This document shows, piece after piece, positions 581 through 24,600 of a stretch of 31,847 bases of DNA. This stretch comes from a virus. Location: the IMG/VR virus record IMGVR_UViG_3300029309_000188, positions 1 to 31,847 of that record. One strand, given 5' to 3'. Both the position numbers and the translations under genes were made by a program. Each line of letters opens with the position of its first letter. Within the stretch, counting starts at the first letter, position 1. The notes under the pieces are model-generated. The model was not told where the DNA came from and searched no databases. It saw only the letters and a program-made list of their open reading frames with translations.

Positions 581-764
581 AGATAACCTCCAATTCTTCT
601 TGAGTTCTTTCATCTAGTTCTGAGATATCTTCATACCCCAATCTTTGATTAATACTACCTAGAGTTGTTTCCTCTAGAGCCGCCTCATCTTTTTTTCCTT
701 GTCTTTTTAGATCTCGTACTCTTTGTACTTGAGCTATATATTCCTCTTCGAATGAATTATACAT
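573..764 (-). CDS. Small hypothetical acidic protein, 63 aa
   Basis: Unrecognised, short, highly charged and acidic toward its C-terminus (ending ELEVIYE); probably helical. Three ATG codons follow one another at 770, 767 and 764. An AAAGGAGG ribosome site directly abuts the first one, so only the third (764) has normal spacing (6 bases), and I place the start there. The gene is the middle member of a three-gene minus-strand set and overlaps both neighbours by 8 bases, typical of co-translated phage genes. No motif points to a function. Confidence 0.75.
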   Translation of the reverse strand: MYNSFEEEYIAQVQRVRDLKRQGKKDEAALEETTLGSINQRLGYEDISELDERTQEELEVIYE

Positions 765-951
765 CATCATCCTCCTTTTTTACTAATACTTCCAAATCCT
801 TTATACACTTAGCATAGCCGCTAACATATAACCAATCTGGACCATCTCCACCTCCGCTGTTTGCAATTTCTTGCTCTATATCATACTGCTTACCTTTTAG
901 TTCTGTGATCATTTTGAACACATCATAGTAGTTATCATCTAGATTCTTCAT
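757..951 (-). CDS. Small hypothetical protein, 64 aa, first gene of left minus operon
   Basis: Unrecognised protein beginning MKNLDDNYYDVFK, with a predicted amphipathic helix, a GGGDG turn, and a second helix ending in an acidic tail (KKEDDDV). The frame is open upstream to 1056, but the ATG at 951 is supported by AAAGGAG seven bases before it. Longer versions would read through the structured region at 965-1133 and lack any ribosome site. The closing helix of that structure ends right where this ribosome site begins, so if the element acts on the minus strand it could control this gene. Confidence 0.75.
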   Translation of the reverse strand: MKNLDDNYYDVFKMITELKGKQYDIEQEIANSGGGDGPDWLYVSGYAKCIKDLEVLVKKEDDDV

Positions 952-964
952 TTTATATCTCCTT

Positions 965-1133
965 TCTAGATTTCTAAGGCTATACAATATCTCTATCGGA
1001 AGGTTAGCGAGAGGCACGAGCTTATCTTGATGTTGCACCTCGTGTGCGACATGCAAGACGTATTTGATGGGATCAACGCATCAGGCGTCCAGCAAATACG
1101 CCTGTAGTATATTGTTATCCTTCCAAATCTAGA
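965..1133. ncRNA. Candidate structured RNA between divergent operons
   Basis: A 9-pair perfect helix (TCTAGATTT at 965-973 with AAATCTAGA at 1125-1133) closes the region. It continues inward through AAGG/CCTT (976-979/1119-1122) and ACAATAT/ATATTGT (984-990/1109-1115). Inside are a 7-pair hairpin with one G-U pair in plus-strand RNA (1032-1038/1044-1050), CACGAG/CTCGTG (1015-1020/1039-1044), CGTATTTG/CAAATACG (1059-1066/1093-1100) and AGGCGT/ACGCCT (1083-1088/1098-1103). The last two share bases and exclude each other, as in a switch. The interior is clearly richer in G+C than the flanks. It matches no RNA family I recognise. Alternatives are a packaging site, an origin, or a 25-codon plus-strand ORF (1030-1107) that has no ribosome site. 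Confidence 0.5.
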
Positions 1134-1261
1134 GAGAGAGATTGACTGACCGAATAGACTCGATTGTCTTGGCATATGCGTAGCATATCTATATATGTGG
1201 ATCGCTATGAGACAGTCTTTTTCTTTCCATACCATGTATGGTCGGCTAGGAGGGTGGTTCT
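1134..1261. other. Non-coding stretch with two hairpins upstream of the terminase leader
   Basis: I see no gene here. Two perfect short hairpins are present: ATATGC-GTA-GCATAT (1174-1188) and CCATAC-CAT-GTATGG (1227-1241). The second ends 6 bases before the strong AGGAGGG ribosome site at 1248-1254 and could modulate access to it. A GA-dinucleotide run (1131-1140) and a pyrimidine-rich patch (1215-1228) flank them. In many phages the packaging recognition site lies near the small terminase gene, so this is a reasonable place to look for it, but nothing in the bases proves that. Confidence 0.4.
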
Positions 1262-1318
1262 ATGCCACCACGAGTAGACGATACAAATGTTTACAAAATA
1301 GTTCTTGACAAGCAATAA
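1262..1318 (+). CDS. 18-codon leader ORF in frame with the small terminase
   Basis: ATG at 1262 follows an ideal AGGAGGG (1248-1254) by 7 bases and encodes MPPRVDDTNVYKIVLDKQ before TAA at 1316-1318. It is in the same frame as the small terminase ATG at 1340, with seven sense codons between that stop and that start. The stop overlaps a second ATG (TAATG, 1318-1320) opening a 20-codon ORF in another frame (to 1380). It may be a leader peptide that delivers ribosomes to the weakly initiated terS, or the former N-terminus of terS cut off by a nonsense change. Confidence 0.5.
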   Translation: MPPRVDDTNVYKIVLDKQ

Positions 1319-1339
1319 TGGTACAAGGTATCTATCGTT

Positions 1340-1723
1340 ATGGGCAGTCTAGTAAAAGGAAAAGATGGTCTAACAAATAAACAAAGGTTATTGGTCGATA
1401 CCCTCGTAACGTCTGGTTGCACCATAACCGAAGCTGCGAAAAAGGCAGGTTATTCAAAGACAGAAAGTGGTAGAGTAATAGCGTCAAGGACGTTACGAAT
1501 CCCCAAGGTCCAAGAGTACTACCGACAACAAGTTGCAGAGATAGGATTGCTTGGTTCAGTCCCAGCAGTTAAGACTTTGGTTAGGCTTTCCACTGAAGCC
1601 AAGAGTGATTACGTAAAGCTTGAAGCGAGTAAAGATATCCTAGATAGATCAGGGTTCAAAGCTCCTGATAAGGTCCAACATTCTCACACTGGTAATTTGT
1701 CTATAACTATCGACCTAGACTAG
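1340..1723 (+). CDS. terS: Small terminase subunit-like protein
   Basis: 127 aa. The region around residues 13-50 (LTNKQRLLVDTLVTSG, then TITEAAKKAGYS) reads as the helix-turn-helix DNA-binding domain typical of phage small terminase subunits, which recognise the packaging site and feed DNA to the large subunit. A second helical segment (about 50-90) would form the oligomer core. Length fits the family. The start at 1340 has only a weak AAGG ten bases upstream; the strong ribosome site belongs to the in-frame leader ORF at 1262. Position, upstream of the terminase large subunit though separated by small genes, supports the call. No other candidate for this role is visible. Confidence 0.7.
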   Translation: MGSLVKGKDGLTNKQRLLVDTLVTSGCTITEAAKKAGYSKTESGRVIASRTLRIPKVQEYYRQQVAEIGLLGSVPAVKTLVRLSTEAKSDYVKLEASKDILDRSGFKAPDKVQHSHTGNLSITIDLD

Positions 1724-3050: not shown

Positions 3051-3242
3051 ATGAGGTACGCAGAGGAACTATCTTACGAGGATCGTCAAAGACTTCGTAA
3101 GATAGTGAAGAAGGAACATTTTAAACATTATCCAAAAGACTTACGATTCTCGGACAATGAAGCCGATAAATTTATAGAATCTCTACTACCAGAAACTATC
3201 TACAAACTTATTAAAAGATCTGTAGATAATGGTATTGCTTGA
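3051..3242 (+). CDS. Terminase-adjacent small protein, 63 aa
   Basis: 63 aa: MRYAEELSYEDRQRLRKIVK, then HFKHYPKDLRFSDNEADKFI and a helical C-terminus (SLLPETIYKLIKRSVDNGIA). The motif pattern (LSYEDRQxLRxIVxxxHFxHYPxD...TDxEADxxIES) is one I associate with a small protein often encoded immediately before the large terminase in marine phages; its biochemical role is not known to me. Its stop overlaps the TTG start of the large terminase (TTGA), implying coupled translation and perhaps a partner role in packaging. Confidence 0.8.
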   Translation: MRYAEELSYEDRQRLRKIVKKEHFKHYPKDLRFSDNEADKFIESLLPETIYKLIKRSVDNGIA

Positions 3243-4762
3243 CAGAACTCAACTACAAAGCTCCAGGTGAAATAATAAAAACCTTTATGAAGGATGATTC
3301 CTTCTTTAGAGGTGTACGTGGTCCAGTAGGATCAGGGAAGTCTGTATCTTGTTGTATTGAAATATTTAGACGTGCATTAAAGCAGAAGCCTGGTCCAGAT
3401 GGTAAACGTAAATCTAGATGGGCAGTAATTAGAAATACAAACCCTCAGTTAAAAACTACTACTATTAAAACATGGTTAGATTGGTTTCCAGAAAGTTCAT
3501 TTGGAAACTTTATGTATTCAGTTCCTTTTACACATAACATTCATGTAGGTGATGTAGAGCTAGAAGTTATTTTTTTAGCACTAGATAGACCAGAAGATGT
3601 AAAGAAACTATTGTCTTTAGAATTAACTGGTGTATGGATTAATGAAGCAAGAGAGATTCCTAAATCTATTGTAGATGCATGTACTATGCGTGTAGGTAGA
3701 TTTCCTTCTATGAAAGATGGTGGACCTTCATGGTATGGTGTTATAGCAGATACTAACGCACCTGATGAAGATCATTGGTGGTCTATTATGTCTGGTGAAG
3801 TACCAGTACCAGATCATATGAATCAAGAAGAATCTTTAATGTTAGTTAAACCAGATAACTGGGAGTTTTTTGTACAACCCCCAGGCATGATAGAAAAGAA
3901 AGAAGATGATAAAATTAAAGGTTATGAGCTTAATAGCTCAGCAGAAAATATTCAAAATGTTACACCTGATTACTATCCAAATATCATCAGAGGAAAAAGT
4001 AAGTCTTGGATTGATGTTTACGTTTTAAATAGATTAGGAACTATTGAAGATGGTAAACTTGTTTATGGTTCATTTAGAGAAGATGTACACATAGCAGATG
4101 AAGATATAGAGTTTGCACCTACTACTGTTTATATTGGATTAGACTTTGGTCTTACACCTTCTGCTGTATTTGGCCAGAAACTACCTGATGGTAGATGGTT
4201 GATACTACATGAACTAGTTTGTTTTGATATTGGTACAGTTAAGTTTGGTGAACTACTGAAGCATGAGATAATTAAACACTGTGCAGATAAAGATTTAAAA
4301 ATATTTGGAGATCCTGCTGGTGATTTTAGAGCTCAGACAGATGAAACAACTCCCTTTCAAATACTTAGACAACAAGGCATCCAAGCATTTCCTGCACCAT
4401 CTAATGATGTAGGTTTGAGAATAGAATCTGTAGAAGCTGCATTGAATAGAATGGTAGATGGCAAAGCAGGATTTTTATTAAATAGATCTTGTAAGTCTTT
4501 ACGTAAAGGATTTTTAGGTGGATATCATTATAGAAGAATACAAACTTCTGGAGAAAGATATGAAGATAAACCAAATAAGAATAAATTTTCACATGTACAT
4601 GATGCATTACAATACCTAATGCTAGGTGCTGGTGAAGGTAGATCATTGACAGTAGGTCCAGCTAAACCACAAGTATCTAATGCTTATAAGAACTGGAATA
4701 TATTTGATCGTGGTTCAATTAACAGGAGGAAGAAGTGGGATATTTTCCGAAGGAATGGTTGA
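3239..4762 (+). CDS. terL: Terminase large subunit (ATPase and nuclease)
   Basis: 507 aa, the DNA-packaging motor. The N-terminal ATPase domain has a Walker A motif GPVGSGKS (residues 28-35) and a Walker B-like VWINEARE (132-138). The C-terminal RNase H-fold nuclease shows its acidic residues in YIGLDFG (D302), IFGDPAGD (D358) and HVHDALQY (D455). Length is normal for T7-like podoviruses. The start is TTG overlapping the previous stop (TTGA); the next ATG is 16 codons in and would leave Walker A only about 11 residues from the N-terminus, so TTG is preferred. The last 28 bases overlap the following gene, whose ribosome site lies inside terL. Confidence 0.95.
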   Translation: MTELNYKAPGEIIKTFMKDDSFFRGVRGPVGSGKSVSCCIEIFRRALKQKPGPDGKRKSRWAVIRNTNPQLKTTTIKTWLDWFPESSFGNFMYSVPFTHNIHVGDVELEVIFLALDRPEDVKKLLSLELTGVWINEAREIPKSIVDACTMRVGRFPSMKDGGPSWYGVIADTNAPDEDHWWSIMSGEVPVPDHMNQEESLMLVKPDNWEFFVQPPGMIEKKEDDKIKGYELNSSAENIQNVTPDYYPNIIRGKSKSWIDVYVLNRLGTIEDGKLVYGSFREDVHIADEDIEFAPTTVYIGLDFGLTPSAVFGQKLPDGRWLILHELVCFDIGTVKFGELLKHEIIKHCADKDLKIFGDPAGDFRAQTDETTPFQILRQQGIQAFPAPSNDVGLRIESVEAALNRMVDGKAGFLLNRSCKSLRKGFLGGYHYRRIQTSGERYEDKPNKNKFSHVHDALQYLMLGAGEGRSLTVGPAKPQVSNAYKNWNIFDRGSINRRKKWDIFRRNG

Positions 4763-21882: not shown

Positions 21883-22733
21883 TGGCTTATATTGGGAACA
21901 TACCTGGAGATAAATATAAATCTTTAGTTAAGCAGACATTTAGTACATCTGCTACAGCAACATATACTTTAGATCATGCAGTAAGTACTGTTAATGACAT
22001 AGAATTATTTTTAAATAATGTCAGACAAGAACCTACTTCTGCATATACTATATCTGGTACTACACTTACATTAGCTAGTGCTATAACTGGTAGTGATTCT
22101 CTATATTGTATATATCAAGGTAGAGCAGTAGAAACTATTGCTCCAGCTACAGGATCAGTTACTAATGCTATGTTAGCTGGTTCTATTGCTAACTCTAAAC
22201 TTGCTAATTCATCTATTACTTTAAATGGTTCTGCTGTTTCTTTAGGTGGTAGTGCTACGATTGGCGGTGGTGGTAAGATTGGTCAAGTGATCCAAACAAG
22301 TCTTGATGGTATTGTAGAACTCACATCTTCTAGTGGTACTTTTGTTGATATTACTGGTTTTAATGCTTCAATTACACCTTCAGCAACAGATAGTAAAATT
22401 CTTATAAACTGTTCAATTAATTATGGTGGTACAGGAAATCTATATGGTGCTACAAGATTACTAAGAGGAAGTACAGCTATTGGATTAGGTGCTAGTGCAG
22501 GTAGTAGAATACCAGCTACAGTTTTTACTTCTTCTGGTGATTTTACAAAAGCTGTTAATAGTGCAGTTCAATTTTTAGATACCCCTTCAACTACTTCAGC
22601 AACAACTTACAAATTACAAGTAACATTAAACAGTGGTCAAACATTTAAATTAAACAGTGAAGGTGAGAATATAGACAATGCTGCTAACCACAGAACTATA
22701 TCAACTATGACACTAATGGAGGTATTAGCATAA
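21882..22733 (+). CDS. Fibre-tip protein 1 (long N-terminus, shared C-terminal domain)
   Basis: 283 aa. N-terminus MAYIGNIPGDKYKSLVKQTF with FLNNVRQEPTSAYTISGTTL is a small beta domain typical of marine-phage fibre proteins. A linker (SITLNGSAVSLGGSATIGGG) leads to a C-terminal domain of about 150 residues: KIGQVIQTS, ITPSATDSKILI, QFLDTPSTTS and a final TMTLMEVLA. The same C-terminal domain recurs in the next three genes. Likely a receptor-binding or tip protein at the end of the short fibre; inferred from position and style. One-base overlap at both ends. Confidence 0.8.
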   Translation: MAYIGNIPGDKYKSLVKQTFSTSATATYTLDHAVSTVNDIELFLNNVRQEPTSAYTISGTTLTLASAITGSDSLYCIYQGRAVETIAPATGSVTNAMLAGSIANSKLANSSITLNGSAVSLGGSATIGGGGKIGQVIQTSLDGIVELTSSSGTFVDITGFNASITPSATDSKILINCSINYGGTGNLYGATRLLRGSTAIGLGASAGSRIPATVFTSSGDFTKAVNSAVQFLDTPSTTSATTYKLQVTLNSGQTFKLNSEGENIDNAANHRTISTMTLMEVLA

Positions 22734-23272
22734 TGCCATTATCTAAAATACAAGCAGAGAGTATGAACCTTGCAGATACTTATTCCTTTACAGGAACAGT
22801 AAGTGGCGTGGGAAAGATTGGTCAAGTAGTTTCAACACACACTAACGCAGTAAGTTTTAGCACTAATTCAACTACTATGGTTGATGTAACAGGAATGAGT
22901 GTAGCTATTACACCAAGTGCCACAAGCTCTAAAATTTTAATAATGGCTTCTGTTACAGCAACATCAAACGAAACCACTAGATGTTTTATTGGTCTTAAAA
23001 GAGGCAGTACTGCTATTGCTAATTGTAGTCCTTCTGGTAGTCAAATTTCAGGAGTAACTTCAGGACATGAACAAGAAGGCAACAATGCACTTTTTAATTA
23101 TCATTTATCTTTTCTTGATAGTCCCTCATCTACTAGCGAACAGACATATAAAATAACTGGGTGTGCAGAAGGTGCAGATGTTTTTCGTTTAAACAGAAGT
23201 CCTGGAGATGCAGATTCAAATACAGTATCTAGAGGTACATCATCAATCACAGTCATGGAGATACTAGCATAA
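22733..23272 (+). CDS. Fibre-tip protein 2 (short N-terminus)
   Basis: 179 aa. Only about 26 residues (MPLSKIQAESMNLADTYSFT) precede the shared C-terminal domain, which starts KIGQVVSTHTN and keeps VAITPSATSSKILIMASV, HLSFLDSPSSTSEQ and SSITVMEILA. It therefore looks like a reduced version of its neighbours, lacking the first beta domain. Similar 'MPLSKIQ' starts are frequent in marine fibre genes. Ribosome site GGAGG is supplied by the last codons of the previous gene. Function presumably host binding; unproven. Confidence 0.8.
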   Translation: MPLSKIQAESMNLADTYSFTGTVSGVGKIGQVVSTHTNAVSFSTNSTTMVDVTGMSVAITPSATSSKILIMASVTATSNETTRCFIGLKRGSTAIANCSPSGSQISGVTSGHEQEGNNALFNYHLSFLDSPSSTSEQTYKITGCAEGADVFRLNRSPGDADSNTVSRGTSSITVMEILA

Positions 23273-24105
23273 TGGCATATATAGGTAGAGATATATCAAG
23301 TGTTTCCGATAGAGTAGTATTAGATAATATTACAGCAAGTGCTACAGCTACATATAACCTATTATTAAATAGTGTTGCATTTGTACCTAGTAGTGCAGAG
23401 AGCCTCACTGTGAGCCTCAATGGAATCATTCAGAAACCCCAAGGCTCTTATTCAGTATCAGGTAGTACGATTGTATTTGCATCAGCATTAACTTCTTCAG
23501 ATTCTATAGACTTTATTATTGCAGAAAGAGCAATCACTTTAACGACAGTAGGTAGTGGTTCAGTAGGAGCATCTCAGATTGTTGATGGATCAGTATCAAA
23601 TGCCAAGTTAGCTAACAGTTCAATTACACTAAATGGTAGTGCAGTATCACTGGGTGGCAGTGCCACTATAGGTGGGGGAAAAATTGGTCAAGTGATTCAA
23701 ACTGTAAGCACAGCTAGTGCTAGCATAAGCACTACATCTTTTGCAGATGTTATGACTGCGGATATAACTCCCTCAGCTACAAGTAGTAAAGTTTTAATAG
23801 ATTTTAGATTAGGTGGTTATAATCCAGGTGCTGCTATGGATATATTTTTTAGAGTATTAAGAGATAGTACAACATTACAAACTGGAACTGCTGGTCAAGG
23901 CACAGCTGCTCAAAGTGCTGGAACACCTAACTCAGATAGAGGTGATGGTGGTTTTAGTATTAATTTTTTAGATAGTCCAAACAGCACGAGTTCTATTACT
24001 TTTCACTTACAATCAAAAGTATCTGGTAGTAGTTATACTTTTAATAGTAAAGGTGGAGGTTATAGCACAATTTCAACTCTAACACTTATGGAGGTACTAG
24101 CGTAA
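23272..24105 (+). CDS. Fibre-tip protein 3 (long N-terminus)
   Basis: 277 aa. N-terminal domain MAYIGRDISSVSDRVVLDNI with VSLNGIIQKPQGSYSVSGST is homologous to that of fibre-tip protein 1, and the same linker follows (LANSSITLNG... with identical residues but different codons). The C-terminal domain shows KIGQVIQTVSTAS, DITPSATSSKVLIDFRLG, INFLDSPNSTSS and TLTLMEVLA. Thus genes 1 and 3 are full-length paralogues and genes 2 and 4 short ones. Start overlaps the previous stop (TAATG), with GGAG before it. Confidence 0.8.
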   Translation: MAYIGRDISSVSDRVVLDNITASATATYNLLLNSVAFVPSSAESLTVSLNGIIQKPQGSYSVSGSTIVFASALTSSDSIDFIIAERAITLTTVGSGSVGASQIVDGSVSNAKLANSSITLNGSAVSLGGSATIGGGKIGQVIQTVSTASASISTTSFADVMTADITPSATSSKVLIDFRLGGYNPGAAMDIFFRVLRDSTTLQTGTAGQGTAAQSAGTPNSDRGDGGFSINFLDSPNSTSSITFHLQSKVSGSSYTFNSKGGGYSTISTLTLMEVLA

Positions 24106-24578
24106 TGGCACTTATTAAATTAAATAATCAATCAATCTCTGCTGTTGATGTAGGTAAGGTTGGTCAAGTTGTTGCTAATCATATTACAACTCAAACTTCT
24201 TCTTCATCAAGTTCCTTTGCAGATGTAGGCGGTAGTGAAACAACTATTGTTACAACTGCAACAACTTCAAAGGTTTTACTTCATATATCTTTATCAGCTA
24301 GAAAATTTAACAATATGTATTTAGCTTTAGATTTATACAGAAAAATAGGTAGTGGTAGTTATTCTAAAATTAGAGATTTTGAAAATGGTTTTTTATTTAC
24401 AAATAGCACAGCAACAAATACAGGAAGATTTGCAGTATCTTTTTTAGATGAACCAGCAAGTGCAGATACAATAAAATATAAAATGCAGTTTAATTCTGGA
24501 CCAAATGGTGCATCAGTTGTTATCAATCCAGATGCACAAGAAACTTCATCTATAATTTTAGAGGAGGTATTAGCATAA
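24105..24578 (+). CDS. Fibre-tip protein 4 (short N-terminus)
   Basis: 157 aa. Starts MALIKLNNQSISAVDVGKVG, an N-terminus common in marine phage tip proteins, and goes straight into the shared domain: KVGQVVANHITT, TTATTSKVLLHISLSARKF, AVSFLDEPASADTI and SIILEEVLA. It is the most divergent of the four (LEEVLA instead of LMEVLA; the ITPSATSSK motif reads VTTATTSK). GGAGG in the previous gene's last codons serves as ribosome site. Likely tip or receptor-binding function by association. Confidence 0.8.
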   Translation: MALIKLNNQSISAVDVGKVGQVVANHITTQTSSSSSSFADVGGSETTIVTTATTSKVLLHISLSARKFNNMYLALDLYRKIGSGSYSKIRDFENGFLFTNSTATNTGRFAVSFLDEPASADTIKYKMQFNSGPNGASVVINPDAQETSSIILEEVLA

Positions 24579-24600
24579 TGAAATTGAAAGGAGAAAAACA

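Follow-up and report, generated by a model that had tools for sequence, protein, structure and literature searches.

Element A, a closed structure at positions 963-1135 of a marine phage genome, is almost certainly a genuine conserved structured element, because its base pairs covary among relatives, and this comparative evidence is decisive. The structure runs from an end helix to a four-way junction with three hairpins and belongs to a set of closed RNA cassettes with differing folds that replace one another between the early and late operons of the phage group; it is read here, with a probability of about 0.4, as a cis-acting leader. Catalogues of noncoding RNAs from phages are poor, and a small marine phage would hardly be expected to set aside hundreds of noncoding bases next to its terminase. 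The RNA described here is supported by covariation, assigned to a strand, found in at least three fold types and located at the boundary between early and late genes.

Genomic setting and stability of element A

The window, meaning the whole stretch of DNA analyzed, is a 31.8-kb record of an uncultured marine virus with podovirus-like gene content. The packaging and structural genes to the right of element A encode the terminase small subunit (TerS; 1340-1723, plus strand; PHROG 2538, E 3.6e-13), TerL (3239-4762), a head-tail adaptor, a tail protein and an internal virion protein. The leftward early genes include SSB, a RecE-like exonuclease and another exonuclease, and the first of this operon (757-951, minus strand, about 65 amino acids) has a weak PHROG match only. 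Element A sits exactly between the leftward early operon and TerS, which bears out the location between divergent operons given by the first-pass annotation. The same annotation placed the 3' edge of the element against the minus-strand ribosome site. This is wrong: the site of the first leftward gene, at 959-967 (CTCCTTTCT on the plus strand), adjoins the left edge, and it lies at the 5' end of a plus-strand RNA from element A. A promoter-like box, TTGACA-N18-TATCTA (1305-1334, plus strand), is a candidate only; it ends 5 bases before the TerS ATG, its spacing is kept in most relatives, and by standard spacing its position suggests a leaderless TerS transcript. The cumulative GC skew of the window has its minimum at 996, and in two related contigs, G003 and G004, the minimum lies no more than about 400 bp from the region.

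Among annotated phages, Pelagibacter phage EXVC031P Hodr comes closest, with 66% identity in TerL and 57% in TerS, and Pelagibacter-type bacteria are the likely host kind of the phage group. TerS searches of bacterial genomes gave best matches of 41% or less and thus no host or prophage context. One deposit among the relatives (L157, OQ414635.1) is titled EXVC031P Hodr and carries EXVC032PBaldr locus tags, probably a labelling slip. Elsewhere in the window, at 22701-24585, a gene-start segment recurs in four near-identical copies (GGAGGTAYTAGCATAATG) together with a matching set of repeats, which marks a tandem family of at least four related genes in the distal late region. Long G+C-rich noncoding gaps of 305-388 bases (G+C content 0.39-0.41) occur in related genomes, namely in the contigs of L124 (G001:15030-15417), L146 (G003:29986-30290) and L109 (G004:32427-32731), and these possibly mark the convergence point of early and late genes.

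Folded as plus strand, 965-1133 attains -58.6 kcal/mol (z -4.66), which none of 200 shuffled sequences matches, so the expected excess of stability over shuffled sequence is present. The minus strand reaches -52.7 kcal/mol (z -4.06). Stability alone is insufficient as proof of element A because other stretches reach z -4 to -6 in a scan of the whole window (170-nt windows, step 85 nt, 14 shuffles each). The plus-strand fold reproduces the bulged inner helix and interior hairpins first proposed for this region, and the perfect 9-pair end helix (965-973/1125-1133) is actually two pairs longer, extending to 963/1135 with one U-G pair. The reported interior enrichment also holds, with a G+C content of 0.47 over 984-1115 and 0.44 over 963-1139 compared with 0.339 for the whole contig.

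Covariation among relatives

TerS and TerL searches of IMG/VR supplied the relatives' loci. Of 99 distinct upstream regions searched automatically, 62 contain the leftward ribosome site and, at a plausible distance beyond it, a GAGAGA-type tract. The tract closes the end helix in most of those 62, and the helix sequence varies by group while complementarity is kept. In more distant relatives that lack these two anchors, the noncoding stretch before TerS still measures about 340-850 bases, and its G+C content nearly always exceeds that of the window's genome. A more distant group (L228, L231 and L234) has about 850 bases without an assigned gene at this location, and the region is much more stable on the plus strand (-267 to -279 kcal/mol) than on the minus strand (-227 to -240 kcal/mol).

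Six window-like sequences were aligned by MAFFT without reference to structure. Thirteen of 40 pairs are changed on both sides, 94.5% of cells are paired, and the covariation score of 0.335 compares with 0.153 for shuffled alignments (0/500) and no more than 0.069 for slid ones. The covariance model built from the same six sequences recovers two other subgroups: L206, L210 and L017 (E 1e-15 to 1e-18), and L183, L161, L164 and L167 (E about 1e-13). All these matches lie on the plus strand and in the same slot. An alignment of 13 sequences (11 distinct, window included), which is biased towards the structure because it was fitted to it, has 22 of 40 pairs changed on both sides, 94.8% of cells paired and a score of 0.522 versus 0.168 ± 0.018 for shuffled and no more than 0.123 for slid alignments; the type I sequences are kin, so the cell counts are not independent events. 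Covarying pairs of the kind sought in related phages are therefore found. Across more than 500 kb of sequence, four near-complete relatives included, the type I model gave no significant match at a second site. Type I copies away from TerS were also considered and rejected, since the pattern matches without TerS lie in G+C-rich sequence and none is a significant model match.

Architecture of the type I fold

On the plus strand, the type I fold begins with the end helix P1 and helix P2, continues through a CUYU bulge and a short junction helix, and opens into a four-way junction from which hairpins H1, H2 and H3 extend. P1 pairs 963-973 (TTTCTAGATTT) with 1125-1135 (AAATCTAGAGA), and 98.9% of its cells are paired. 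Between subgroups, A-U becomes U-A and U-A becomes C-G, with both sides changing. The base of P1 is closed by a conserved GAGAGAGA tract. The conserved GAGAGAGAGA tract on the 3' side of P1 (1132-1141) occupies the same place in most related upstream regions and can pair on the plus strand, U-G pairs included, with the sequence opposite the leftward ribosome site. P2 joins ACAATAT (984-990) to ATATTGT (1109-1115), with 5 of 7 pairs changed on both sides, and is followed by the bulge CTCT (991-994), which the alignments give as CUYU in type I relatives. H1 (1006-1022; GCGAG-loop-CGAGC) possibly contains two tandem G-A pairs between Watson-Crick pairs; these positions are U-A and C-G in L206 and L017 of the type I alignment. 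H2 (1025-1058) has 6 of 14 pairs changed on both sides. In H3 (1059-1100), both sides have changed in 7 of the 11 lower-helix pairs and in 2 of the 4 pairs of the short tip; the 5-nt RAUCA bulge (1071-1075) lies below this tip, and the inner hairpin spans 1076-1088. RAUCA in H3 and UAUC after H1 are the conserved unpaired stretches of type I.

Two interior stems that exclude each other had been read as a switch. Both are present in the sequence, and the stem 1059-1066/1093-1100 (CGTATTTG/CAAATACG) has covariation support as part of the extended H3 helix. The alternative stem 1083-1088/1098-1103 (AGGCGT/ACGCCT) has no two-sided change, fails in L008, L107 and L099, and occurs solely in the window's closest relatives. 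The switch is therefore unsupported, and a two-state riboswitch was rejected.

A separate resemblance links P1 to the first leftward gene. Codons 3-5 of that gene repeat a P1 strand (window 937-971; TCTAGAT, or TCTTGAT in L183, L165 and L102), and its leucine codon (CTA or CTT) tracks the P1 sequence. The repeat was equalled in 0 of 20000 permutations, with shared descent uncontrolled. P1 could thus face competition from a hairpin around the start codon and ribosome site of this gene.

Strand assignment

G-U pairs distinguish the two strands. The type I alignment holds 22 G-U cells in 6 columns on the plus strand and no A-C cells, which would be G-U on the minus strand. U1034-G1048 in H2, the pair noted as valid only in plus-strand RNA, is U-G in 9 of 11 distinct relatives and C-G in 2. 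A tally of single helix mismatches was made in diverged elements folded with Watson-Crick pairs only, which avoids fold-prediction bias. The interiors of element A gave 18 G-T versus 2 A-C and 11 T-T versus 0 A-A mismatches, and the shuffle controls gave ratios of 86:58 and 87:50, respectively. The plus strand is thus very probably the functional one, because the wobble excess lies on it and the minus-strand equivalents are absent. Mutational strand bias may add to this asymmetry. Element A probably acts as RNA rather than as single-stranded DNA.

Exchange of folds upstream of TerS

At least three covarying fold types occupy the slot upstream of TerS. Type II, with the core GAGCGnAGCGAGUUAC, is found in L165, L162, L168, L185, L186, L188 and L226, and type III in L223, L204, L214, L217, L208, L109, L104, L108, L169-L171, L177 and L190 among others. 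Two-sided changes affect 8 pairs in type II and 12 in type III. The members of a further group (L178, L174, L187 and others) are 95% alike and uninformative on covariation. Types I, II and III all occur at loci whose TerS genes are 96-98% identical in DNA, and the upstream positions 61-350 of these loci align at only about 50%. Near-identical TerS genes beside unrelated upstream folds indicate that the region is replaced as a unit, as an exchangeable cassette.

A second closed module, element B (1144-1217, plus strand), follows element A. Its covarying end helix (1144-1148/1213-1217) surrounds a conserved core with a hairpin at 1174-1188. Five pairs have two-sided changes among six sequences, and G-U cells are present on the plus strand where A-C cells are absent. 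The mismatch tally, with 6 G-T and 2 A-C, weakly favors plus. The U run after element B is not conserved among relatives. Two small plus-strand hairpins are seen in the sequence of the adjacent region C, CCATAC/GTATGG (1227-1241) and GGTGG/CCACC (1253-1269). The element B of type III loci (such as L223, L208, L177 and L190) has a recurring asymmetric internal loop, UUG-GGUUR-CCU opposite AGG-U-CAA. B elements that otherwise differ are closed by this loop; the pairs on either side of it change jointly in L177, and judged by sequence the loop looks like a protein-binding RNA motif.

Identity searches and coding potential

Searches against Rfam 15 (4227 families) at the gathering score or at E up to 10 returned nothing relevant for the region, which agrees with the earlier statement that element A matches no known RNA class. 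The search over 800-1400 likewise gave nothing up to E 10, including any pRNA model held there. Four query sequences found no similar DNA among 50,697 annotated phage records. We found no paper that describes element A, and one pelagiphage transcriptome paper does not mention intergenic RNA. The proposal that the element was undescribed is upheld by its absence from Rfam, the annotated phage records and the literature found. We rate element A as a new family within a known broad class, the phage-encoded structured RNAs; its unusual trait is whole-fold exchange in one slot.

The coding alternative raised in the first-pass annotation was also pursued, and no reading frame is conserved across type I relatives. 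An 80-residue minus-strand open reading frame (993-1235) is stop-free in L221 only and interrupted in the other type I relatives, and protein coding was rejected. No intrinsic terminator (a G+C-rich stem with a U run) was found in 600-2000, and no conserved terminator lies between element A and TerS. No conserved sigma-70-like promoter was recognised on the plus strand left of element A, and none was found on the minus strand to its right.

Discussion

We infer, tentatively and with a probability of 0.35-0.4, that element A is the cis leader of a rightward transcript. Such a transcript would start just left of element A and continue through TerS to the structural genes, and at the early-to-late switch its fate (read-through by polymerase, processing or stability) would be decided by the tandem closed modules. 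If it began within the leftward ribosome site, it would also be antisense to the leftward gene and could help to silence the early operon. The lack of a conserved terminator before TerS fits the leader reading. It is weakened because no conserved plus-strand promoter is recognised to the left of element A, which abuts the leftward gene, and because a promoter-like box of TerS itself lies downstream of elements A and B. In the cultured relative EXVC031P Hodr, the corresponding region upstream of TerS (L157:4650-4980) folds as well, which makes the question testable in culture.

A trans-acting RNA and a DNA-level role are serious rivals of the leader reading. Element A may instead be a free-standing phage small RNA, a regulator, decoy or immunity determinant that is processed or terminated before TerS, and cassette exchange would then reflect selection for differing specificities between competing phages. 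We consider this the less probable of the two RNA accounts: the compact closed fold with its unpaired UAUC and RAUCA, the replacement of the whole cassette beside near-identical TerS and the separate TerS box speak for it, but no promoter or terminator of its own is recognised and several elements stand in tandem. A broader idea is rather unlikely: that the modular slot between early and late operons is a novel type of phage control locus, in which unrelated plus-strand RNA cassettes are swapped whole and selection keeps them diverse because they determine specificity or immunity when marine phages co-infect. About as improbable is a folded single plus strand of DNA that serves as a replication origin or priming site at the genome's point of divergence. 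The skew minimum and the location between early and late operons suit such a site, and G-T is better tolerated than A-C in DNA as well; however, divergent gene orientation predicts the skew minimum anyway, the folds differ wholly between close relatives, and neither iterons nor a linked replication initiator gene were found here.

The remaining explanations concern the flanking genes. A minus-strand leader of the leftward early operon, with UCUCUCUCU and P1 masking the ribosome site, is improbable because the wobble evidence points to the plus strand, and the element lies away from the ribosome site in L040 and L191, even though P1 adjoins the site AGAAAGGAG, codons 3-5 repeat a P1 strand in several groups and an alternative start-codon hairpin is possible. 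The cos of lambda-like phages lies upstream of TerS, as element A does, and a cos or pac site bound by TerS could yield the folds as a by-product. We regard this as very unlikely: TerS stays near-identical while the region is replaced, its sequence not being conserved together with TerS, an argument that covers sites within A and B, and strand-specific wobble pairs are unexpected of a double-stranded site. Least probable of all is a phi29-like packaging RNA that works in the motor. Element A is likewise a compact closed RNA beside packaging genes with a kept fold and variable sequence, as reported for pRNAs (PMC12670572), but the phage encodes both TerS and TerL, an Rfam match is absent even at E 10, and the four-way junction is replaced by other folds.

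Among known systems, the candidate structured RNAs of Candidatus Pelagibacter ubique were likewise obtained by comparative discovery, in the likely host kind (PMC2704228); they are host-genome RNAs and were compared with element A via Rfam only. A staphylococcal phage RNA sensed by CBASS is also a structured phage RNA tied to the terminase region (PMC10686824), but it is transcribed from the terminase genes themselves, whereas element A lies in noncoding DNA upstream of TerS. The phi29-type pRNA resembles element A as a phage-encoded closed structured RNA near packaging functions, with a sequence that varies while the fold is kept (PMC12670572). Element A differs from it in having TerS beside it, a four-way junction, wholesale fold exchange and no Rfam match.

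The HK022 put antitermination RNA is a cis-acting leader fold whose nascent RNA lets polymerase pass terminators. Put is small, with two stem-loops, and is not a terminase-linked cassette, but as a cis-acting phage leader RNA fold it offers, by analogy, the nearest mechanism to that proposed for element A.
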